Below are positions 10,927 through 40,220 of a DNA stretch of 64,000 nt, piece by piece; position 1 is the stretch's first letter, and every line of letters starts with the position of its first letter. The notes beneath the pieces were generated by a model. That model ran no database searches. It saw only the letters and a program-made list of their open reading frames with translations, and was not told the DNA's origin. Origin of the DNA: Caulobacter sp. 32-67-35 (lineage in GTDB: Bacteria; Pseudomonadota; Alphaproteobacteria; Caulobacterales; Caulobacteraceae); contig NCEV01000001.1 in the NCBI GenBank assembly GCA_002280875.1, forward strand, positions 1 through 64,000, written 5' to 3'. The translations under genes and the position numbers were made by a program.

Positions 10927-13049
10927 CCAAGGCTCATTCGCCGCGCGCTTCCGTCCTGGCCATCGCCGCGGCCATCGCACTGGCCGGCGCGTCTTTGCCT
11001 GCAGCGTCGGTTCGCGCCCAGACCCAGGTTCTGAACGTCCAGGACGCCGATATTCGCGTCTTCATCCAGGACGTCGCTAAGAGCACAGGCACGACCTTCA
11101 TCATTGATCCCCGGGTCAAGGGCACAGTGACGGTCGCCAGCAACGGACCGCTCAATCGCCGGGAGCTGTTCGAGGTTTTCCTGGCGACCCTGCGCGCCAA
11201 CAATTTCGTCGCCACGCCGGCGGGGAATGGCGCCTATCGCATCGAACCTTCTGAAAACGCCGCCCGCCAGCCCAGCACGGCGGGAGGGCAGTTCGCCACC
11301 GAAGTCTTCCGCCTGCGGACCATAGACGCCGCCAGCGCCGTGGACATGCTCAAGCCGCTGATCGGTCCGCAGGGCCAGGTGGTGGCCAATCCGCGCGGCG
11401 GGGCCATCGTTGTGGCCGACTACGCCGACAATGTGCGCCGCATCCGCGCGTTGCTGGCCCAGGTCGATCAAGACCGCGCCAGCGTCCACACCGTGACCCT
11501 GACCAACAGCTCAGCGCGTGAAATCGCCCAGGTCATCAACGAGATCATGGCCGCGCCCGGCGCGGACGGAAAGGGCGGTCGCGGCGCGGTGACCGTGGTC
11601 GCCGTCGAGAGCAGCAACTCGGTGCTGCTGCGGGGCGACTCCGACGCCGTGCAGCGTCTGCTCCCGATCATCACCGACCTGGATCGTCGCGCCGAGTCCA
11701 GCGACGACGTCCGGGTGGTGTTCCTGCGCCACGCCAATGCCGAGCAGATGCTGCCGGTCCTGCAGCAACTGGTAGGCCAGAGTTCGACGGCGTCGGCGGG
11801 AACTTCGGCCCGGTCGCTCGGCGCGACCCGTTCGGCGGGAAGCGCCGCGACCGCAAGCTCCGCCAGCGCCGCGCCTGCGGCCTCCTCTTCGCCCGTGGCC
11901 GCCTCGGCCGGGGGCGCCCAGGCCAGTGTCGCGCGCTACCCGGGGGCCAATGCTCTGATCATCAGCGCGCCGCCCGAGACCCAGCGCACGCTGGCCGAGG
12001 TGATCCGCCAGCTCGACATCCGCCGCGAACAGGTGCTGGTCGAGGCTATCGTCGTGGAAGTATCCGACGACGCCGCCAAGCAGCTGGGCGTGCAGTTCCT
12101 GCTGGGCGGCGCCGACGGCACGGTTCCCTTCGCCGCCACCAACTACACCAACGCCTCGCCGAGCCTGCTGCCCCTGGTCGCCGCCGGCGCCGCCGGGGAC
12201 CCCAAGGATACGGACTCTGACGCCCTGGTGTCGCTACGCGATGCGGCGGTCAGTTCGCTGCTGACCGCCTCGGGCATCACCAGCGGCATCGCCGGCCGCA
12301 GCGGCGACACGCTGTTTGGCGCCATCATCAATGCGGTGAAGAAGGACGCGGCGTCGAACCTGCTGTCGACGCCGTCGATCATGACCCTCGACAACGAGGA
12401 AGCCCGTATCCTGGTGGGCCAGGAAGTGCCGATCACCACCGGCGAGGTGCTGGGCGACTCCAACTCCAACCCCTTCCGCACCATCCAGCGCCAGAACGTC
12501 GGCGTTCAGCTGGAGGTCAAGCCGCAGATCAACGCCGGCGGCGGCATCACCCTGTTCCTGCGCCAGGAAGTTTCCAGCGTGGCCGGGCCAGTCAGCGTCG
12601 GCTCCAGCGAGCTGATCATCAACAAGCGCGAGATCGAGACCACGGCTCTGGTCGATGATGGCGACATCGTCGTGCTGGGCGGCCTGCTGGACCAGCAGGA
12701 GACGGTCTCGGTGCAGCGCACGCCGCTGCTCAGCGACATCCCTGGTCTGGGCGCCCTGTTCCGCAGCACGGCGCGGGAACGCGGCAAGACCAACCTGATG
12801 GTTTTCATTCGCCCGCGGATCATTCGCAGCGTCACGGACGCCCGCAATGTCACGGCGCCGCGTTACGACTACATGCGCAATCTGCCGGCCATGACCACGC
12901 CGGATGGCGACAACTCGCTGGACGCGGTGATCCGCGACTATCTGCGAACTGCTCCCCCAACAGCGGTCGCGCCAGCGCCCGTGGCCTCGGGTCCGATCGC
13001 CGCAGTTCCGCCCGCACCCGTCACCACCGCGCCTCTGACGCCGCGATGA
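10923..13049 (+). CDS. gspD: T2SS outer-membrane secretin GspD
   Basis: The protein has 708 residues with a signal peptide (cleavage near VRAQ). The N0 domain starts at LNVQDADIRVFIQDVAK, followed by N1-N3 repeats (for example TVTLTNSSAREIAQVINEI). The third carries a long Ser/Ala linker (about residues 283-330). The secretin core includes SNLLSTPSIMTLDNEEA and the VGQEVPITTGEV motif, ending with GGLLDQQETVSVQRTPLLSD and NLMVFIRPRII. It forms the multimeric outer-membrane gate of the T2SS. A Pro/Ala/Val-rich tail follows, possibly a pilotin or wall-interaction region; no gspS gene is seen. It overlaps gspC and gspE by 4 bases each. Confidence 0.96.
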   Translation: MTKAHSPRASVLAIAAAIALAGASLPAASVRAQTQVLNVQDADIRVFIQDVAKSTGTTFIIDPRVKGTVTVASNGPLNRRELFEVFLATLRANNFVATPAGNGAYRIEPSENAARQPSTAGGQFATEVFRLRTIDAASAVDMLKPLIGPQGQVVANPRGGAIVVADYADNVRRIRALLAQVDQDRASVHTVTLTNSSAREIAQVINEIMAAPGADGKGGRGAVTVVAVESSNSVLLRGDSDAVQRLLPIITDLDRRAESSDDVRVVFLRHANAEQMLPVLQQLVGQSSTASAGTSARSLGATRSAGSAATASSASAAPAASSSPVAASAGGAQASVARYPGANALIISAPPETQRTLAEVIRQLDIRREQVLVEAIVVEVSDDAAKQLGVQFLLGGADGTVPFAATNYTNASPSLLPLVAAGAAGDPKDTDSDALVSLRDAAVSSLLTASGITSGIAGRSGDTLFGAIINAVKKDAASNLLSTPSIMTLDNEEARILVGQEVPITTGEVLGDSNSNPFRTIQRQNVGVQLEVKPQINAGGGITLFLRQEVSSVAGPVSVGSSELIINKREIETTALVDDGDIVVLGGLLDQQETVSVQRTPLLSDIPGLGALFRSTARERGKTNLMVFIRPRIIRSVTDARNVTAPRYDYMRNLPAMTTPDGDNSLDAVIRDYLRTAPPTAVAPAPVASGPIAAVPPAPVTTAPLTPR

Positions 13050-14418
13050 CCGCGAATTTGCTCGCCTACGGCTTCGCCAAACGCCATGGCGTCGTCCTGC
13101 TGTCGCTGGGCGAGCGGGCGGTGATCGGCGTGCGCGAGGGCGCCGATCCCGCCGCGCTCGTTGAGGTTCGCCGCGCCGTGGGGTTGCCCTTGGCGATCGA
13201 ACCCATGGCGCCGGCCGTGTTCGATCGGCGGTTCTCCGAGGTCTATGCCCCCAGGACGACGCGCCGATCATCCGGCTGATCAACGGCCTGATCGCCGAAG
13301 CCGTGCGCCTGGGCGCCTCCGACATCCATATTGAGCCCTTCGAGCAGGCCCTGATCGTGCGCCTGCGCATCGACGGCCTGTTGCGCGAAGTGCTGAGTCT
13401 GTCGCCGCGCATCGCCGCCATGCTGGTGTCGCGCGTCAAGGTGATGGCCAAGCTCGACATCGCCGAGAAGCGCCTGCCCCAGGATGGCCGAATCTCGCTG
13501 GCCCTCGGTGGCAAGAGCCTCGACGTGCGGGTCTCCACCCTGCCGGCCCGCATGGGCGAGCGGGTGGTGATGCGGATCCTCGACAAGGACCAGGCGGGCC
13601 TGCGCCTGGCCGACCTGGGCATGTCGCCCGAGGTTCTGAGCGCTCTGGAGGCCGCTGTGCGCGAGCCTCATGGCATCATCCTGGTCACCGGCCCGACCGG
13701 CTCGGGCAAGACGACGACGCTCTATGCCGCCCTGGCGGTGCTGAACGACAACAGCCGCAACATCCTGACGATCGAAGACCCGGTCGAATACGCCGTGCAT
13801 GGCATCGGCCAGACCCAGGTCAACACCAAGGTTGGCATGACCTTCGCGGCCGGCCTGCGGGCCATCCTGCGCCAGGACCCCGATGTGGTGATGGTCGGTG
13901 AAATCCGCGATTCCGAGACCGCCCAGATCGCGGTCCAGGCCAGCCTGACGGGCCACCTGGTGCTGTCGACCGTCCACACCAACGACGCGGCCGGCGCGGT
14001 CGTGCGTCTGCGCGACATGGGCGTCGAGCCCTTCCTGCTGGCCTCGACCCTGCGGCTGATCATCGCCCAGCGCCTGGTGCGCCGCCTGTGCGAGCATTGC
14101 CGGACGCCCGAGCCTGCGGACGCGGCCGCCGCCGCCCTGGTCGGCATCGAGCCGGGCGAGACCCTCTATCGCCCTGTCGGCTGCTCCCACTGCGCCCATA
14201 CCGGCTATCAGGGCCGGATCGGCATCTACGAGGCCCTGCGCGTCGACGACCGCCTGCGCCGTCTGATCGGCGGCAACGCCACCGAGCAGGAGATCACGGC
14301 CGCTGGCCTGGATCGCGATCTGGGCCAGGAAGCCCGCCGCTACATCCTAGCCGGTCTGACGACGGTCGAGGAGGCGCTTCGGATCACCGGGCAGGGGGCG
14401 CGTGATGGCGACCTTTGA
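13046..14418 (+). pseudogene. gspE: T2SS ATPase GspE, interrupted by a -1 frameshift
   Basis: Two overlapping-in-sense parts make one gene. 13046-13279 encodes the N-terminal 77 residues in frame 2 and runs into a stop. From about 13250 the family sequence [17 protein letters not shown] continues in frame 1 to 14418. The switch lies in a C5 tract (13248-13252), and one added C would read [14 protein letters not shown] without interruption. The second part has Walker [11 protein letters not shown], Walker B with [14 protein letters not shown], and the zinc motif CEHC...CSHC. The restored length is about 457 residues, normal for a short GspE. It powers pseudopilus assembly. A sequencing slip is the simplest cause; otherwise the T2SS is inactive or phase-variable. 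An internal GTG at 13303 could start the C-terminal part. Confidence 0.88.
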
Positions 14419-26322: not shown

Positions 26323-26639
26323 GCGACGCGACGGATCATCCCGGGCGTGACGCGCTTGGCTGGGTACAGGCCGGTTATGGCGAGGGCCGTTGGCCAGGGA
26401 TGCTCGACGCGCGGACGGGGCGACTGTTTCGTCTTGGGATCTGGTGGAAACACAGCGGAGCTCCAGCACCCGTCTCCGTCGATGAGATCAGCGACCGCAT
26501 ATTGATGATCGATCATCGCATCCTCGTCACCGACAACTATGGCGACATCGTCATGAACCTCGAAATCAGCAACAGCGGTTCAGACACCCTCCTTTCCGCT
26601 CCCGCCAAGAAGCAACGCCAATGTTCAGCAAGATCCTGA
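26319..26639 (+). CDS. Hypothetical protein between pccB and pccA
   Basis: The protein has 106 residues with an ATGA overlap with pccB and a 19-base overlap with pccA, so it is embedded in the operon. The first part has [21 protein letters not shown] and the middle [24 protein letters not shown], which looks like a small beta fold; no membrane segment is present. I do not recognise the family. Position suggests a role tied to the carboxylase, such as assembly or regulation, but there is no direct sign of it. Confidence 0.65.
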
Positions 26640-28615
26640 TCGCCAACCGTGGCGAGATCGCCGTCCGCGTCATCAAGACGTGTCGCCGGCTGGGGATCGC
26701 GACCGTGGTGGTCTATTCCGACGCCGACGCGGGCAGCATGGCCGTCGAGATGGCCGACGAGGCCGTGCATATCGGCCCGTCGCCGGCCAACCAGTCGTAT
26801 CTCGTCGCCGACAAGATCATCGACGCCTGCAAGCAGACCGGCGCCCAGGCCGTGCACCCGGGTTTTGGCTTCCTGTCGGAAAACGCGGGCTTCGCCCAAC
26901 GCTGCGCCGACGAGGGCATCGCCTTCATCGGCCCCAACCCCGGCGCCATCCGCGCCATGGGCGACAAGATCGAGAGCAAGAAGTTCGCCCAGGCTGCCGG
27001 CGTCTCCTGCGTGCCCGGCCATATCGGCGAGATCGACGACACCGCCCATGCCGTGAAGATCTCCGAGGAGATCGGCTATCCGGTGATGATCAAGGCTTCG
27101 GCCGGCGGCGGCGGCAAGGGCATCCGCGTCGCCTGGACCCGCCAGGACGTCGAGGAGGGCTTCCCGGCCGTCCGCGCCGAGGCCAAGGCCAGCTTCGGCG
27201 ACGACCGCATCTTCATCGAGAAGTTCATCGTCTCGCCGCGCCACATCGAGATCCAGGTGCTGGGCGACAAGCACGGCAACGTCGTCCACCTGTTCGAGCG
27301 CGAATGCTCGATCCAGCGCCGCAACCAGAAGGTCATCGAAGAAGCCCCGAGCCCGCTGCTCGACGAGGCCACCCGCAACGCCATGGGGGCCCAGGCCGTG
27401 GCCCTGTCCAAGGCGGTGAACTACGACAGCGCAGGCACCGTCGAGTTCGTCGCCGGCCAGGACAAGAGCTTCTTCTTCCTGGAGATGAACACCCGCCTGC
27501 AGGTCGAGCATCCGGTCACCGAGCTGATCACGGGCCTGGACCTGGTCGAGCAGATGATCCGCAGCGCCTGGGGCGAGAAGCTGGCCTTCGCGCAGAAGGA
27601 CCTGAAGATCAACGGCTGGGCCATCGAGAGCCGCATCTACGCCGAGGACCCCTACCGCAAGTTCCTGCCCAGCATCGGCCGCCTGGTTCGCTATGCCCCT
27701 CCGGAGGAGGGACAGCATGAAGGCTACGTTGTGCGCAACGACGCCGGGGTGCGCGAGGGCGACGAGATCTCGATGTTCTACGACCCGATGATCTCCAAGC
27801 TCTGCACCTGGGCCCCGACCCGCATCGCGGCGGTCGACGGCATGGGCCGGGCGCTGGAGGACTTCCATATCGAGGGGCTGGGCCAGAACATCCCGTTCCT
27901 GAACGCGGTGATGGACCAGGAGCGCTTCCGCTCGGGCCAGCTGTCGACCAACTACATCAAAGACGAGTTCCCGGACGGCTTCACCGGCACCGAACCCACC
28001 CCGGCTCAGATCGACATCCTGATCGTTGTCGGCGCGGCCATGCAACGGGTCTATGCGGCCCGGGCTCGCTCCAACGCGGTGGTCTTCGGCGGCCCGGTGC
28101 GCGACGAATGGGTGGTGGCCGTCGGCCACGCCAAGCGCCGGGTGAAGCTGGCGGGCCAGGGGACCTTGTCGGTCGAGCTGCTGGACGAGGGCCGGACCTT
28201 GACGTTGTCTGCCATCGATTGGCGGCCGGGCCTGCCGACCTTCCGGGGCGAGCTCGACGGCAAGCCCTTCACGGTCCAGGTTGCTCCGGCAGCCGAGGGC
28301 TTCACCGTCCGCCACCGCGCCGCCAAGGCTCGCGTGCTGGTCCTGACCCCGCGCTCGGCCGAACTGCACGACAAGCTGCCCGAGAAGCAGGCGGCCGACA
28401 CCTCCAAGCTGGTGCTGTCGCCCATGCCGGGCCTGGTGGTGTCGATGGACGTCACGGCCGGTCAGCAGGTCCGCGAAGGCGAGGTGGTCTGCGTGCTCGA
28501 GGCCATGAAGATGCAGAACATCATCCGCGCCGAGCGCGACGGCCTGGTCAAGGCCGTCAACGCCAAGGGTGGCGATCCGGTGGCCGCCGATGAAGTCTTG
28601 GTGGAGTTCGCATGA
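26621..28615 (+). CDS. pccA: Propionyl-CoA carboxylase alpha (biotin) subunit
   Basis: The protein has 664 residues. The biotin carboxylase domain opens with [22 protein letters not shown] and contains the glycine-rich ATP loop KASAGGGGKGIR and [16 protein letters not shown] linker domain follows, then the biotin carrier with EAMKM, the biotinylated Lys being Lys630. It carboxylates biotin with ATP and bicarbonate and works with PccB. The complex feeds propionyl-CoA from Val, Ile, Met and odd-chain acids into methylmalonyl-CoA. The stop overlaps the following MerR-like gene (ATGA). Confidence 0.96.
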   Translation: MFSKILIANRGEIAVRVIKTCRRLGIATVVVYSDADAGSMAVEMADEAVHIGPSPANQSYLVADKIIDACKQTGAQAVHPGFGFLSENAGFAQRCADEGIAFIGPNPGAIRAMGDKIESKKFAQAAGVSCVPGHIGEIDDTAHAVKISEEIGYPVMIKASAGGGGKGIRVAWTRQDVEEGFPAVRAEAKASFGDDRIFIEKFIVSPRHIEIQVLGDKHGNVVHLFERECSIQRRNQKVIEEAPSPLLDEATRNAMGAQAVALSKAVNYDSAGTVEFVAGQDKSFFFLEMNTRLQVEHPVTELITGLDLVEQMIRSAWGEKLAFAQKDLKINGWAIESRIYAEDPYRKFLPSIGRLVRYAPPEEGQHEGYVVRNDAGVREGDEISMFYDPMISKLCTWAPTRIAAVDGMGRALEDFHIEGLGQNIPFLNAVMDQERFRSGQLSTNYIKDEFPDGFTGTEPTPAQIDILIVVGAAMQRVYAARARSNAVVFGGPVRDEWVVAVGHAKRRVKLAGQGTLSVELLDEGRTLTLSAIDWRPGLPTFRGELDGKPFTVQVAPAAEGFTVRHRAAKARVLVLTPRSAELHDKLPEKQAADTSKLVLSPMPGLVVSMDVTAGQQVREGEVVCVLEAMKMQNIIRAERDGLVKAVNAKGGDPVAADEVLVEFA

Positions 28616-33826: not shown

Positions 33827-35230
33827 ATGACCGAGACACTGAGACCCAAGGTCCTCGTCATTGGCGGGGGGCCGGGCGGCTACGTGGCCGCCATCCGCGC
33901 CGGGCAACTGGGGCTGGACACCGTGCTGGTCGAGAGTGGGCGGCTGGGCGGCACTTGCCTGACGCGAGGCTGTATTCCGTCCAAGGCCCTGATCCATGCC
34001 GCCGGCCTCTACGAGGAAGCCGTATTGGCGAGCGCCGAGACGGGACGGTTCGGCATTCACCTGACCCAGGCGCCGACCCTACGCTTCGAAGAGACCGTCG
34101 GCTGGAAGGACGCCATCGTCGATCGCCTCAGCGGCGGCGTTGGCGGACTGTTGCGCAAGGCGAAGGTGAAGGTCGTGACCGGCTGGGCGACCTTCTCCGA
34201 CGCCAAGACCTGCATCGTCGAGACCGCGAAAGGCCCCGTCAAAATCCAGCCGGAACATGTGATCCTGGCCACAGGCTCCACCGCCGTCGAACTGCCGTTC
34301 CTGCCGTTCGGAGATCGGGTGATCTCCTCGACCGAGGCGCTGTCCCTGTCAGAAGTTCCGGCGACCTTGGCCGTGGTCGGCGGTGGCTATATCGGCCTGG
34401 AGCTCGGCATCGCCTTCGCCAAGCTGGGGTCGAAGGTGACCATCGTCGAGGCGACTGATCGCCTTCTGCCGCTTTACGACACCCAGCTGACCGCGCCAGT
34501 GTCGCGTTGGCTCGAAAAGCACGGCGTCACGGTCCATCTGGGCGCCAAGGCCCTGGGCCAGGACGACGAAGGCCTGCTGATCCAGACGGCGGGCGGCAAG
34601 AGCCAGCTGGTCGTGCCGGCGGAGCGCATCCTGGTGACGGTCGGCCGCAAGCCGCTGACCGAAGGGTGGGGGCTGGACCAGATGGCGCTGGCGATGGACG
34701 GGCGCTTCGTGAAGGTCGACGACCGCTGCGCGACGTCCACCACCAACGTCTGGGCCATCGGCGATCTGGTCGGTGAACCGATGCTGGCGCACAAGGCGTC
34801 GGCGCAGGGCGAGATGGTCGCCGAGATCATCGCGGGTCGCCGGCGACGATTCGACCCGGTCGCCATCGCCGCCGTCTGTTTCACCGAGCCAGAGATCGTC
34901 AGCGTCGGACTGACGCCCGATCAGGCCCCCGAAGGCGTCGAGACCATCGTGGGTCAGTTCCCTTTCCAGGCCAACGGCCGCGCCCTGTCGATGCAGGCCG
35001 GGGACGACGGCGGGTTCGTGCGCATCCTGGCGCGAAAATCCGACCATCGGATTCTCGGCATCCAGGCGGTCGGACGACACTGCTCGGAGTTCGCGGGCGA
35101 GTTCGCCGCCCTGATGGAGATGGGAGCCGTTCTGGAAGACGTCGCCGGCGTCATCCACGTCCACCCCACTCTGGGCGAAGCCATCCACGAGAGCGCGCTG
35201 AAGGCGCTCGGCCACGCCATTCACATTTGA
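33827..35230 (+). CDS. lpdV: Dihydrolipoamide dehydrogenase E3 of the bkd complex
   Basis: The 467-residue flavoprotein has the FAD motif VIGGGPGGYVAAIRAGQLGL, the redox disulfide GGTCLTRGCIPSKAL (Cys44/Cys49), the NAD motif VVGGGYIGLELGIAFAKLG and, at the C-terminus, the catalytic His-Glu pair in HVHPTLGEAIHESALKA. It reoxidises dihydrolipoyl E2. Its linkage to bkd makes LpdV more likely than the housekeeping Lpd. Confidence 0.95.
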   Translation: MTETLRPKVLVIGGGPGGYVAAIRAGQLGLDTVLVESGRLGGTCLTRGCIPSKALIHAAGLYEEAVLASAETGRFGIHLTQAPTLRFEETVGWKDAIVDRLSGGVGGLLRKAKVKVVTGWATFSDAKTCIVETAKGPVKIQPEHVILATGSTAVELPFLPFGDRVISSTEALSLSEVPATLAVVGGGYIGLELGIAFAKLGSKVTIVEATDRLLPLYDTQLTAPVSRWLEKHGVTVHLGAKALGQDDEGLLIQTAGGKSQLVVPAERILVTVGRKPLTEGWGLDQMALAMDGRFVKVDDRCATSTTNVWAIGDLVGEPMLAHKASAQGEMVAEIIAGRRRRFDPVAIAAVCFTEPEIVSVGLTPDQAPEGVETIVGQFPFQANGRALSMQAGDDGGFVRILARKSDHRILGIQAVGRHCSEFAGEFAALMEMGAVLEDVAGVIHVHPTLGEAIHESALKALGHAIHI

Positions 35231-35247
35231 CGCCCGGACCTCACGCC

Positions 35248-36411
35248 ATGAGCATGCCTTTCACATCTCAATCGATGGACTTTGGCCTCGGCGAGAACGC
35301 CGACGCCATTCGCGAGACGACGGCGAGGTGGGCCCGCGACAAGCTGGCGCCGCGCGCCGCCGAGATCGACGAGACCAACACCTTCGCCCGCGACCTGTGG
35401 CCCGAGATGGGCGAGCTGGGCCTGCACGGCATCACGGTCGAGGAAGAGTTCGGCGGCCTGGGCTTGGGCTATCTGGAGCATGTGGTGGCGATGGAGGAGG
35501 TGTCCCGCGCCTCCGCCTCTATCGGCCTCAGCTACGGCGCCCACTCCAACCTGTGCGTCAACCAGATCCGCCGCTGGGGCACGCCCGAGCAGAAGCGGAA
35601 ATACCTGCCCAAGCTGATCAGCGGCGAGCATCTGGGCTCGCTGGCCATGTCGGAGGCCGGGTCGGGCTCGGACGTCATGTCGATGCGGACGCGCGCCGAG
35701 AAGAAAGGCGATCGCTACGTGCTGAACGGCACGAAGTTCTGGATCACCAACTCGCCCACCGCCGACACCCTGGTCGTCTATGTGAGAACAGGGGAGGGCA
35801 ATGGCGGCGTCACCGCCTTCCTGGTCGAGAAGGGGATGAAGGGCTTCAGCGTCTCAAAGAAGCTCGACAAGATGGGCATGCGCGGCTCCGACACCGCCGA
35901 GCTGGTGTTCGAGGACTGCGAGGTCCCGGAGGACAACATCATGGGCCCGGTCGGCGGCGGCGCGGGGGTGTTGATGAGCGGCCTCGACTACGAACGCACA
36001 GTCCTGTCGGGCGGGCCGCTCGGCATCATGCAGGCGGCCCTGGACGTGGTCCTGCCCTATGTCCGCGAGCGTAAGCAGTTCGGCAAGGCCATCGGCTCGT
36101 TCCAGCTGATGCAGGCCAAGGTGGCCGACATGTACGTCGCCCTCAATTCGGCCCGGGCCTATGTCTATGCGGTGGCGCGGGCCTGTGACGCGGGTAGGAC
36201 CACGCGCTTCGACGCGGCAGGCGCGATCCTGCTGGCCTCGGAGAACGCCGTGAAGGTCAGCCTGGAAGCCGTGCAGGCCCTGGGCGGCGCCGGCTACACC
36301 AAGGAATGGCCGGTCGAACGGCTCGTCCGTGACGCCAAGCTCTATGACATCGGCGCCGGCACCAACGAGATCCGCCGCTTCCTGATCGGTCGCGAGTTGT
36401 TGGGGTCATGA
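35248..36411 (+). CDS. liuA: Isovaleryl-CoA dehydrogenase
   Basis: The protein has 387 residues with acyl-CoA dehydrogenase signatures: [32 protein letters not shown], and [15 protein letters not shown], where the Glu matches the catalytic base position special to isovaleryl-CoA dehydrogenases. It ends [20 protein letters not shown]. It oxidises isovaleryl-CoA, the product of the bkd complex from leucine, to 3-methylcrotonyl-CoA. It overlaps mccB by 4 bases. The ATG at 35248 is preferred over a TTG at 35227. Confidence 0.93.
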
Positions 36412-38318
36412 GCGCGCCGGTCCTGATGTCGTCGCTCTCGACCGAGAGCGATCAGTTCAAGGCCAACGCGCGCCACAACCGCGATCTGGTCGAGACCCTT
36501 CGCGCCGCTGTCGCAAAGGCGAGCCTGGGTGGCGACGACCGGGCTCGGGAGCGGCATGTTTCCCGCGGCAAGCTGCTGCCGCGGGACCGGGTCGACCGGC
36601 TTCTGGATCCCGGCTCACCCTTTTTGGAAATCGGCCAGCTGGCCGCCAACGGCATGTACGGGACCGCCACCGACGTCGATGGCGCGCCGGGCGCCGGGAT
36701 GATCTGCGGGATCGGTCGGGTGTCGGGCCGCCAGGTGATGATCGTCTGCAACGACCCGACCGTTAAGGGCGGGGCCTATTTCCCGATGACGGTGAAGAAG
36801 CACCTGCGCGCTCAGGAGATCGCCGAGCAAAACCATCTGCCTTGCGTCTATTTGGTCGATAGCGGCGGGGCCAACCTGCCGCACCAGGCCGAGGTCTTTC
36901 CCGATCGCGAACACTTTGGCCGGATCTTCTTCAACCAGGCCAACATGTCGGCCAAGGGCATTCCCCAGATCGCCTGCGTCATGGGATCCTGCACGGCGGG
37001 CGGCGCCTATGTGCCTGCGATGTCGGACGAGACGGTGATCGTGCGCAACCAGGGCACCATCTTCCTGGCCGGTCCGCCGCTGGTGAAGGCCGCGACAGGC
37101 GAGGTCATCTCGGCCGAGGATCTGGGCGGCGCCGACACGCATGGCCGCAAGTCGGGGGTCGTCGATCACGTCGCCGACAATGACGAACACGCCCTCACCA
37201 TCGTTCGCGACATCGTTTCGACCTTGCCACCGCAGACGCTGCCGTCACTGAACCTGGCTGCCGTCCAGCCGCCGAAATACGCGCCGGAGGAGCTCTACGG
37301 CGTGACGCCACAGGACGTGCGCGCCCCCTATGACGTTCGCGAGGTCATCGCGCGGCTGGTCGACGGCTCGGAGTTCCACGAGTTCAAGGCCCTCTACGGC
37401 GCGACTCTGGTCTGCGGCTTCGCCCACATCTGGGGCATCCCGGTAGCCATCCTGGCCAACAACGGCGTGCTGTTCTCCGAGAGCGCCCAGAAGGGCGCCC
37501 ACTTCATCGAGCTGGCCTGCCAGCGGAAGATCCCGCTGCTGTTCCTGCAGAACATCTCGGGCTTCATGGTCGGCGGCAAGTACGAGGCCGAGGGCATCGC
37601 CAAGCATGGCGCCAAGCTGGTCACCGCCGTCGCCACCGCCAGCGTGCCGAAAATCACCGTCCTGATCGGCGGCTCCTTCGGGGCCGGCAACTACGGCATG
37701 TGCGGCCGGGCCTACAGCCCGCGCTTCCTGTTCACCTGGCCCAACAGCCGGATCAGCGTCATGGGCGGCGAGCAGGCCGCTTCCGTTCTGGCCACCGTCC
37801 ACCGCGACGCGGAGACCTGGACTCCAGAGCAGGCCGAGGCCTTCAAGGCGCCCGTCCGCCGGAAGTACGAGGACGAGGGCAATCCCTACTACGCGACCGC
37901 CCGGCTGTGGGACGTCCCTGCTCATCGCCAACCGCGGCGAGATCGCCTGTCGCATCATCAAGACCGCCAAGCGGCTCGGCGTGCGCACCGTCGCCGTCTA
38001 TTCCGACGCGGACGCAGCGGCCCTGCATGTCCGGCTCGCCGACGAGGCGGTGCACATCGGCCCGTCGCCGGCTCGGGAATCCTATCTGCTGGGCGACCGC
38101 ATCATCGCCGCCGCCAAGGCGACCGGCGCCGAAGCTATCCACCCCGGCTACGGCTTCCTGTCCGAGAACGCCGACTTCGCCGACGCCGTGACGTCGGCGG
38201 GGCTGGTCTGGGTCGGGGCGCCGGCGTCCTCGATCCGCGCCATGGGACTGAAGGATTCGGCCAAGGCGCTGATGATCGCTGCGGGCGTGCCCGTCACCCC
38301 CGGCTACATGGGCGATAA
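36408..38318 (+). CDS. liuB: Methylcrotonyl-CoA carboxylase beta subunit with damaged C-terminus
   Basis: Residues 1 to about 502 are a normal carboxyltransferase of the MccB type: [53 protein letters not shown] and [21 protein letters not shown]. The expected C-terminal 30-odd residues after ARLWDDG are absent. At 37911-37914 the sequence changes to the start of the alpha-subunit gene in another frame, so the reading continues for 134 Arg-rich junk residues to 38318. The protein would carboxylate 3-methylcrotonyl-CoA with the alpha subunit, but may be unstable. It overlaps liuA by 4 bases. Deletion or assembly collapse is likely. Confidence 0.85.
37908..37920. other. Deletion junction between mccB and mccA
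   Basis: Upstream of about 37913 the sequence reads as MccB (RLWD); from 37912 it reads in frame 1 as [15 protein letters not shown], the N-terminus of an MccA lacking only its first residues. The MccB C-terminus, its stop, any spacer and the mccA start codon are all missing. One or two bases could belong to either side (microhomology). Confidence 0.8.
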
Positions 38319-39771
38319 CCAGGATCCCGATCATCTGAAGATCCAGGCCGACGCCATCGGCTATCCCGTCCTGATCAAGGCTGTCGCGGGCGGCGGCGGC
38401 AAGGGCATGCGCAAGGTCGAGGCCTCCGCCGATTTCCTCGATATGCTCGCCTCGTGCCGACGTGAGGCGGCGTCTTCCTTCGGCGACGATCGGGTCCTGA
38501 TCGAGAAATACATCCTTTCGCCGCGGCACATTGAGGTTCAGGTCTTCGGCGACACGCACGGCGATGTCGTGCATCTGTTCGAACGCGACTGCTCTCTGCA
38601 GCGCCGCCACCAGAAGGTCATCGAGGAAGCGCCGGCTCCCGGCATGACGCCCGAGGTGCGCGAGGCCGTGTGCGCCGCCGCCGTCAAGGCCGCGAAGGCC
38701 GTCGATTATGTTGGCGCTGGCACGATCGAATTCATCGCCGACGCTTCGGAAGGCCTGAAGGCCGATCGCATCTGGTTCATGGAAATGAACACGCGACTGC
38801 AGGTCGAGCATCCGGTGACTGAAGCGATCACCGGCCAGGATCTGGTCGAATGGCAACTGCGCGTCGCTTCTGGCGAGCGCCTGCCCAAGCGCCAGGACGA
38901 GCTCGCGATCAACGGCTGGGCCATGGAGGCGCGCCTCTACGCCGAGAACCCGACCGCCGGCTTCCTGCCGTCCACCGGCCCGCTGGACCGGTTGCGGTTG
39001 CCCAAGGAGGTGCGCGTCGACACCGGCGTCTACGAGGGTGGTGAGGTCACCCCCTTCTACGACCCGATGATCGCCAAGCTGATCGTCCATGCGCCCACAC
39101 GTCAGGCCGCCGCCGCGAAACTAGCCGCGGCCGCCCGCCAGGTTCAGGTCTGGCCCGTCCGCACCAACGCCGCCTTCCTGGCCCGCGCGGCCGCCGACGG
39201 CGATTTCGTGGCCGGCAGGGTGGATACCGGCTTCATCGAGCGCGGCATCGAGGCCCTGGTCCCGACCGCCGAGCCCTCCGCCGCCATCCAGGCGGCCGCC
39301 GCCTTGGCGCTCGTCCCGGCGCAGACGGAGCGCGCTTGGACGGACCTGCCGGGCTTTCGCGCCAACGCTCCGGCGCAGCGCCAGGTCGCCGTCTCTATCG
39401 CCGGTTCCATCCACCTGGCCGAAGCTGCGTCGAGCGCCAAGGGATGCGTCGCTTCGGTCGGCGGACGCGACATCCTGTTCCTCGACGGCGAGGCTTGGCC
39501 GATCGGTCCGGGACGCGTGGACGCCATCAGCGGCGGGGGCGCTTCCGACGGCGCGATCCTCAGTCCCATGCCGGGGAGGGTCATCGCGGTCGATGTTGAA
39601 GAGGGCCAGGCGGTCACACGCGGACAGAAGCTCCTGACGCTGGAGGCCATGAAGATGGAGCACGGCATGGTCGCCCCGTTCGACGGCGTGGTCATGATGT
39701 TATCGGTCAAGGCCGGCGACCAGGTAGGGGAGGGCGCGGTTCTCGCCCGGATCGAGGCGAGGGCGGACTGA
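37981..39771 (+). CDS. liuD: Methylcrotonyl-CoA carboxylase alpha (biotin) subunit, 5' damaged
   Basis: Homology begins at 37912 ([21 protein letters not shown]) without a start codon; the first usable start in frame is the GTG at 37981, which drops about 23 conserved residues of the biotin carboxylase domain. From there the ATP-grasp loop [30 protein letters not shown] and a biotin carrier with EAMKM (Lys558) are intact. With the beta subunit it would carboxylate 3-methylcrotonyl-CoA in leucine breakdown. The stop overlaps the MaoC gene by 1 base. Function is doubtful unless the junction is an assembly error. Confidence 0.85.
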
Positions 39772-40220
39772 TGGCTGGACGCCACTTCGAGGATTGGACG
39801 GTCGGTGATCGGTTGGCGCACGAGATCCGTCGCACCGTGACCGAGACCGACAACCTCCTGTTTTCGGTCATGACCCACAATCCGCAACCGCTGCATCTGG
39901 ACGCCGAGGCGGCCAAGGCCAGCGAGTTCGGTCGCATCCTGGTCAACGGCACCTTCACCTTCGCCCTGATGATCGGCCTTTCGGTGGGCGATACGACGCT
40001 GGGGACTTTGGTCGCTAACCTCGGATACGACACGCTGGTCATGCCGGCGCCGGTCTTTATCGGCGACACCATGCATGCCGAGACGGAGGTGACGGCGCTC
40101 AAGGACAGCCGCTCCCGGCCAACCGCCGGTCTGGTCACCTTCTCGCACAGGCTGTTGAACCAGCGCGACGAGGTGGTCTGTTCGTGCCTTCGGACCGCTC
40201 TGGTGAGCCGCCGGCCATGA
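39771..40220 (+). CDS. MaoC-family (R)-hydratase, Rv2499c-like
   Basis: The 149-residue hot-dog protein has THNPQPLHLDAEAA, where the usual catalytic Asp of R-hydratases is replaced by an Asn/His context seen in itaconyl-CoA and Rv2499c-type hydratases, and GRILVNGTFTFALMIGLSV. Next to a CitE-like lyase and the leucine enzymes it is expected to hydrate 3-methylglutaconyl-CoA to (R)-HMG-CoA. The overlap with liuD is 1 base and with the lyase 4 bases, so it is part of the same operon. No enoyl-CoA hydratase of the AUH type is present in the operon. Confidence 0.82.
   Translation: MAGRHFEDWTVGDRLAHEIRRTVTETDNLLFSVMTHNPQPLHLDAEAAKASEFGRILVNGTFTFALMIGLSVGDTTLGTLVANLGYDTLVMPAPVFIGDTMHAETEVTALKDSRSRPTAGLVTFSHRLLNQRDEVVCSCLRTALVSRRP

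Follow-up and report, generated by a model that had tools for sequence, protein, structure and literature searches.

The beta subunit of 3-methylcrotonyl-CoA carboxylase (MCC) is represented among solved structures by Protein Data Bank (PDB) entry 3u9r (chain B). A survey of 126,564 assemblies, in the parts covered here, reports that many putative bacterial pseudogenes stem from assembly errors, to which coverage and the assembler contribute (PMC11017572). Here, we describe the adjacent genes mccB and mccA in a 64,000-nucleotide stretch of Caulobacter sp. 32-67-35 (the window; positions 1 to 64,000 of contig NCEV01000001.1, assembly GCA_002280875.1). In this assembly (G000), a 163-contig draft of 4.1 Mb in which the window lies on a 151-kb contig (C90), the two genes are fused out of frame. 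We conclude from the assembled sequence that the fusion is very probably an assembly artifact and not a change in the bacterium. It resembles the spurious pseudogenes of the survey in that frame-breaking lesions occur in conserved genes of one draft and are absent from relatives. Unlike the lesions described here, those treated in the same parts of the survey are frameshifts and internal stops generally, and these parts describe no blunt losses of 28–148 bp (PMC11017572). The locus consists of the following features:

36408..37913, forward strand: mccB (3-methylcrotonyl-CoA carboxylase beta, the carboxyltransferase subunit), residues 1–502 of an expected 538; Pfam Carboxyl_trans, E 1.9e-150.
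37913..37914, forward strand: junction, with 124 bp fewer than in relatives; its placement is ambiguous by 1 base.
37914..38318, forward strand: out-of-frame run-on of the mccB frame, 134 alien codons followed by TAA at 38316–38318.
37912..39771, forward strand: mccA (subunit with the biotin carboxylase and biotin carrier domains); it has no start codon and lacks only about its first 3 residues; assigned by its Pfam domains.

The mccB frame opens at ATG 36408, and its homology to MccB ends at residue 502, the D of RLWD, whose codon ends at 37913. Homology to MccA begins at 37912–37914 in a different frame and without a start codon, and this frame remains open from 37912 to 39768 (619 amino acids). 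The sequence across the junction reads CGGCTGTGGGAC up to the break and GTCCCTGCTCATCGCC beyond it. The closest in-frame stop 5′ of the mccA homology is TGA 37663, and ATG, GTG, and TTG are all absent from the frame between this stop and GTG 37981; a start at GTG 37981 would leave out the first 23 residues of the MccA homology.

Comparison with relatives defines the size of the loss. In all, 124 bp, which is not a multiple of 3, are missing relative to G016, G059 (contig C2), and G071 (contig C1), all of which have mccA directly 3′ of mccB; two more distant loci in G002 hold about 123 bp at the corresponding site. The lost content comprises 36 MccB residues, the mccB stop, the mccA start, and about 3 MccA residues. 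The closest relative in this region, G016 contig C472 (91–93% nucleotide identity), has an intact MccB of 538 residues and a stop, with the mccA start a few bases further on. The initial annotation of this DNA had placed the end of MccB homology at RLWD 37913 and the start of MccA homology at 37912 without a start codon, and had described the two genes as fused out of frame by a deletion that took the "last 30-odd residues" of MccB, its stop, and the start of mccA. The translations agree with these coordinates and with this anatomy, and the number of missing residues is 36 (538 in relatives, 502 in the window). Positions 37910–37919 form a 10-bp palindrome, GGGACGTCCC, and in G016 the segment has GGGAC at one end and GTCCC at the other; by eye, no other junction carries anything alike, and nothing is built on the palindrome here.

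The missing MccB tail is otherwise conserved. Of 29 relative loci in a first set, 28 allow it to be read to within 2 residues of its end; the remaining one (L028) is an mccA-only match. Among the matches listed in a second set, the same holds for 79 of 80 loci, and in the remaining one (L159) the alignment reaches tail residue 95 of 98. With up to 2 mismatches allowed, the junction pattern occurs in one of the 75 genus genomes searched, namely this assembly. It is thus private to a single assembly, and the idea that it is common to relatives was rejected, as the other 74 genomes searched lack it. Nor was the missing mccBA segment found elsewhere in the 4.1-Mb assembly: the best match that covers the missing part is a paralog on contig C101 (79%), and displacement of the segment within the assembly was rejected as well. 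In the near-complete genomes G059 and G071, the adjacent mccBA cluster lies on contigs of 265 kb (G059:C2, L193) and 298 kb (G071:C1, L194) and stands apart from the other mcc locus; the cluster is perhaps carried by a second replicon.

At the protein level, both pieces are recognizable. The window MccB covers positions 2–457 of the 493-position Carboxyl_trans profile, compared with 2–485 in the intact G016 copy, so that the beta subunit lacks a full carboxyltransferase domain as printed. The window MccA matches Biotin_carb_N (from profile position 4), CPSase_L_D2, Biotin_carb_C, and Biotin_lipoyl, so that all four expected domains lie within 37912–39768, and its translation contains EAMKMEH, which we take to be the motif of the biotin carrier site. 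Residues 5–538 of the 538-residue G016 MccB align with 3u9r chain B (E 2.9e-234). Up to residue 502, the window MccB shares the domain of this MCC beta subunit, and the biotin carboxylase and biotin carrier domains of MccA are likewise those of MCC; unlike intact MCC, the printed version lacks the last 36 residues of MccB and a start codon for MccA, and the two frames differ. Other solved proteins matching the intact relative MccB are AccD1 (4q0g, an acetyl-/propionyl-CoA carboxylase; 4.3e-237), which ranks above 3u9r, 9yx0 (named only as a carboxyl transferase domain protein; 9.3e-234), and the propionyl-CoA carboxylase beta subunit 9tps (4.7e-231); a geranyl-CoA carboxylase match is weaker (3.5e-138). 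NCBIfam gave no listed match at its cut-off for the MccB and MccA pieces (for MccA, among the best 25 of 54). We refer to mccBA as a carboxylase predicted to act on 3-methylcrotonyl-CoA rather than on propionyl- or geranyl-CoA. Compared with G016, mccB has 95 synonymous and 26 nonsynonymous differing codons among 502, and mccA has 108 and 39, respectively, among the 585 codons covered by the G016 contig; neither contains a stop. Outside the junction, both genes thus look to be under selection.

A second mcc locus is present on contig C101. From the translations, we take its genes to be those of an acyl-CoA dehydrogenase, MccB, a GNAT protein, and an enoyl-CoA hydratase. Its mccB (L032:6355-7974) is open to the end, and its Pfam-scanned mccA (mccA2) lacks, out of frame, 32 bp that three references hold beyond the region encoding the biotin carboxylase domains. 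As the window mccA and mccA2 are both broken, neither of these mcc loci encodes a whole MccA as printed. Since this would be surprising biology, the assembly itself was put to the test.

A total of 491 kb of G000 was read (contigs C90 and C101 in full, C61, C121, and C80 in part), using a codon-usage hidden Markov model (HMM) with a frameshift penalty of 18 (the −18 setting). The HMM made 12 frame-break calls, which translations and relatives sorted into seven clean out-of-frame deletions of 28–148 bp, four gene overlaps, and one further call (C61:40187; L093 near position 187) that was assigned to neither class. Six more out-of-frame losses in other genes thus accompany the fusion within the stretch read. 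One lies in the window:

13049..14418, forward strand: gspE (type II secretion ATPase), interrupted at about 13248/13249 by a clean out-of-frame loss; the gene start is approximate; identified by its frame break and comparison with relatives.

Here, 103 bp are missing relative to G071 and 100 bp relative to G019 and G014, whereas the other six of the nine genomes searched have no match on both sides; the 5′ piece matches NCBIfam TIGR02533 weakly and below the cut-off (E 6.3e-06). Elsewhere, 92 bp are lost from metH on C121 (L100:16654), a segment that all nine genomes searched hold and that was not found elsewhere in the assembly, 121 bp from a Gfo/Idh oxidoreductase gene on C61, 28 bp from a coiled-coil gene on C80 (three of three references), and 148 bp, out of frame, from a patatin-like gene about 5 kb from mccA2 (five of five references). 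We take the names metH, Gfo/Idh, patatin, and coiled coil from the translations, and they are presumptive.

The lesions have a common character. Where the break can be placed, junction homology is 0–2 bp as judged from the relatives' sequence. Slippage at repeats is therefore not needed, and deletion by slippage between direct repeats found no support at the placeable junctions. Placement is poor for Gfo/Idh (118–124 bp), wrong for L037, and compatible with many equal positions for patatin against G016. The lost segments have a G+C content of 0.61–0.79, compared with 0.66–0.67 for the contigs read. No 1–2 nt frameshift was traced among the G000 HMM calls, C61:40187 being left aside. The densest cluster seen is on C101, where a 10-kb stretch contains four losses, ranging from 32 to about 165 bp (L032:5630, 10779, 11750, and 14756); that at 11750 falls between genes, varies in size among references (162–170 bp), and was not counted as clean. 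The alignment scan described below found a 147-bp in-frame loss on the same contig.

Six other genomes served as controls. At the −18 setting, the HMM made six calls in 260 kb of G019 (five read as gene overlaps and one left unassigned), four in 140 kb of G003, which look like small frame errors, two in 100 kb of G071 (one read as an overlap), one in 360 kb of G059, and none in 200 kb of G064 or 108 kb of G061; among these control calls, the alignment check covers that in G003 mccB only, which is a 2-nt error. The single-contig genome G003 has this small frame break in its own mccB (L081 ~2475; G003:C1 ~3082475) and three more small-looking ones in the 140 kb, and appears to carry another kind of fault, namely small frame errors. 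Under a strict HMM setting, the calls comprised the window junction and C80:24255 for G000 and a single one for G003, and the C101 losses were missed. A loose setting (−13) gave 9.37, 5.0, and 7.14 unsorted calls per 100 kb in G000, G019, and G003, respectively.

An alignment scan of the same genomes identified six G000 deletions of identical size in at least three references (148, 147, 121, 92, 32, and 28 bp) and none in G059, G061, G064, G071, G003, and G019, with three-reference coverage of 80 kb in G000 and 282 kb in the six controls. The control list contains eight deletions, each contradicted by one spanning reference; for one of these, G019 143464, two references both give 15 bp. The G000 list of eight includes the intergenic C101:11750 and C80:20743 (93 and 98 bp, with G061 disagreeing), neither of which was counted as clean. 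An earlier, stricter alignment rule gave three deletions in G000 and none in the six controls. Two other approaches were set aside: a first tblastn scan was noisy because choosing the longest open reading frame picks antisense frames, and the spectrum of small indels was unusable as a test of decay, as many 1–2 bp events are neighboring deletion/insertion pairs that resemble alignment noise.

Blunt, mid-sized losses across conserved genes, without traced 1–2 nt frameshifts, are best explained by collapsed or stripped gaps. From this pattern, we infer that the sequence was lost in the assembly rather than in the cell. A short stretch, 124 bp at this locus, would have disappeared at the join between two assembled pieces, for instance because a scaffold gap was bluntly closed or its unknown bases were stripped. 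The organism itself most likely has a normal mccB, with a normal mccA behind it, in a leucine-degradation cluster. The lack of traced small frameshifts counts in favor of such an artifact, since decaying genes would be expected to collect them, as do the apparent selection on mccB and mccA, the failure to find the mccBA and metH segments elsewhere in the assembly, and the 163-contig draft state. The initial annotation had presented the junction as a deletion that damages the enzyme, in an operon where everything else is intact, unless the assembly had collapsed here. Both subunits do look damaged as printed and the genes adjoining mccBA are open, but the claim of intactness is too wide given the second deletion in the window (gspE at about 13248), and the six further clean out-of-frame losses of 28–148 bp in 491 kb make a natural deletion less likely and favor the caveat.

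Several observations weigh against an artifact. The 491 kb of G000 contain no N at all, so any gap must have been silently closed or stripped. The 32-bp loss in mccA2 is absent relative to one spanning reference, G016, in the alignment scan. That comparison is biased upward for G000, as relatives' stretches were fetched around known lesions and the mcc genes were the reason for reading C101; the contigs picked by size only (C61, C121, and C80; 320 kb) hold three confirmed losses. The raw HMM rate of G000, 2.44 per 100 kb, is no higher than those of G019 (2.31) and G003 (2.86), and the difference between G000 and the controls emerges only after sorting of the calls, which in the controls was mostly done by eye. 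In addition, the two-thirds rule of the alignment scan dropped both the window junction, because three references show the 124 bp but G064, G003, and G019 align on both sides of it with mcc genes that are not adjacent, and gspE, because the set contains a single spanning reference. Our argument is drawn from the assembled sequence, and the loss could be real.

In its simplest form, a real loss would have removed the 124 bp from the source strain, or from some members of a sampled population, and inactivated this mcc copy, with the C101 locus making this tolerable. The junction is clean as printed and lies within a 151-kb contig, the second mccB is open to its end, so that loss of one copy could be tolerated, and the lesions differ in size, as natural deletions would. 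We nevertheless regard this explanation as improbable, because the mccA of the second locus has its own 32-bp out-of-frame loss, metH, gspE, and other genes carry the same blunt type of loss, and broad decay by 28–148 bp deletions would be needed while the two genes tested still look selected. A version in which all of the losses are real, so that conserved genes, both mcc loci and metH among them, carry many blunt deletions of 28–148 bp, would call for an unusual end-joining-like process and imply impaired leucine breakdown and methionine synthesis; we consider it highly improbable. Finally, both proteins might be made as printed, with MccA starting at CTG 37918 or ATC 37924 or reached by a frame change at the junction, to give a fused or coupled enzyme. 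MccA would be short by only about 3 residues, and both codons lie in its frame, but MccB would still lack the 36 C-terminal residues kept in 28 of 29 and, among the matches listed, 79 of 80 relative loci, and the junction occurs in only one of 75 genus genomes; this reading is almost certainly wrong.

The genes that flank mccBA in the window are as follows:

35227..36411, forward strand: acyl-CoA dehydrogenase gene, open, upstream of mccB; Pfam acyl-CoA dehydrogenase N, M, and C domains.
39771..40220, forward strand: MaoC-like dehydratase gene, open, downstream of mccA; Pfam MaoC_dehydratas, E 2.3e-22.

About 10 kb upstream, at 26634–27801, the window contains a biotin carboxylase-like gene with about 70% DNA identity to the mccA of the second locus.

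As an artifact, the fusion would be a matter of data quality only. Scaled to 4.1 Mb, the assembly would contain about 40 out-of-frame losses (from 3 in 320 kb) or about 60 (from 7 in 491 kb), both being estimates and not counts. Metabolic models or pseudogene counts derived from this assembly would then be wrong in scoring leucine catabolism, type II secretion, and cobalamin-dependent methionine synthase as lost.

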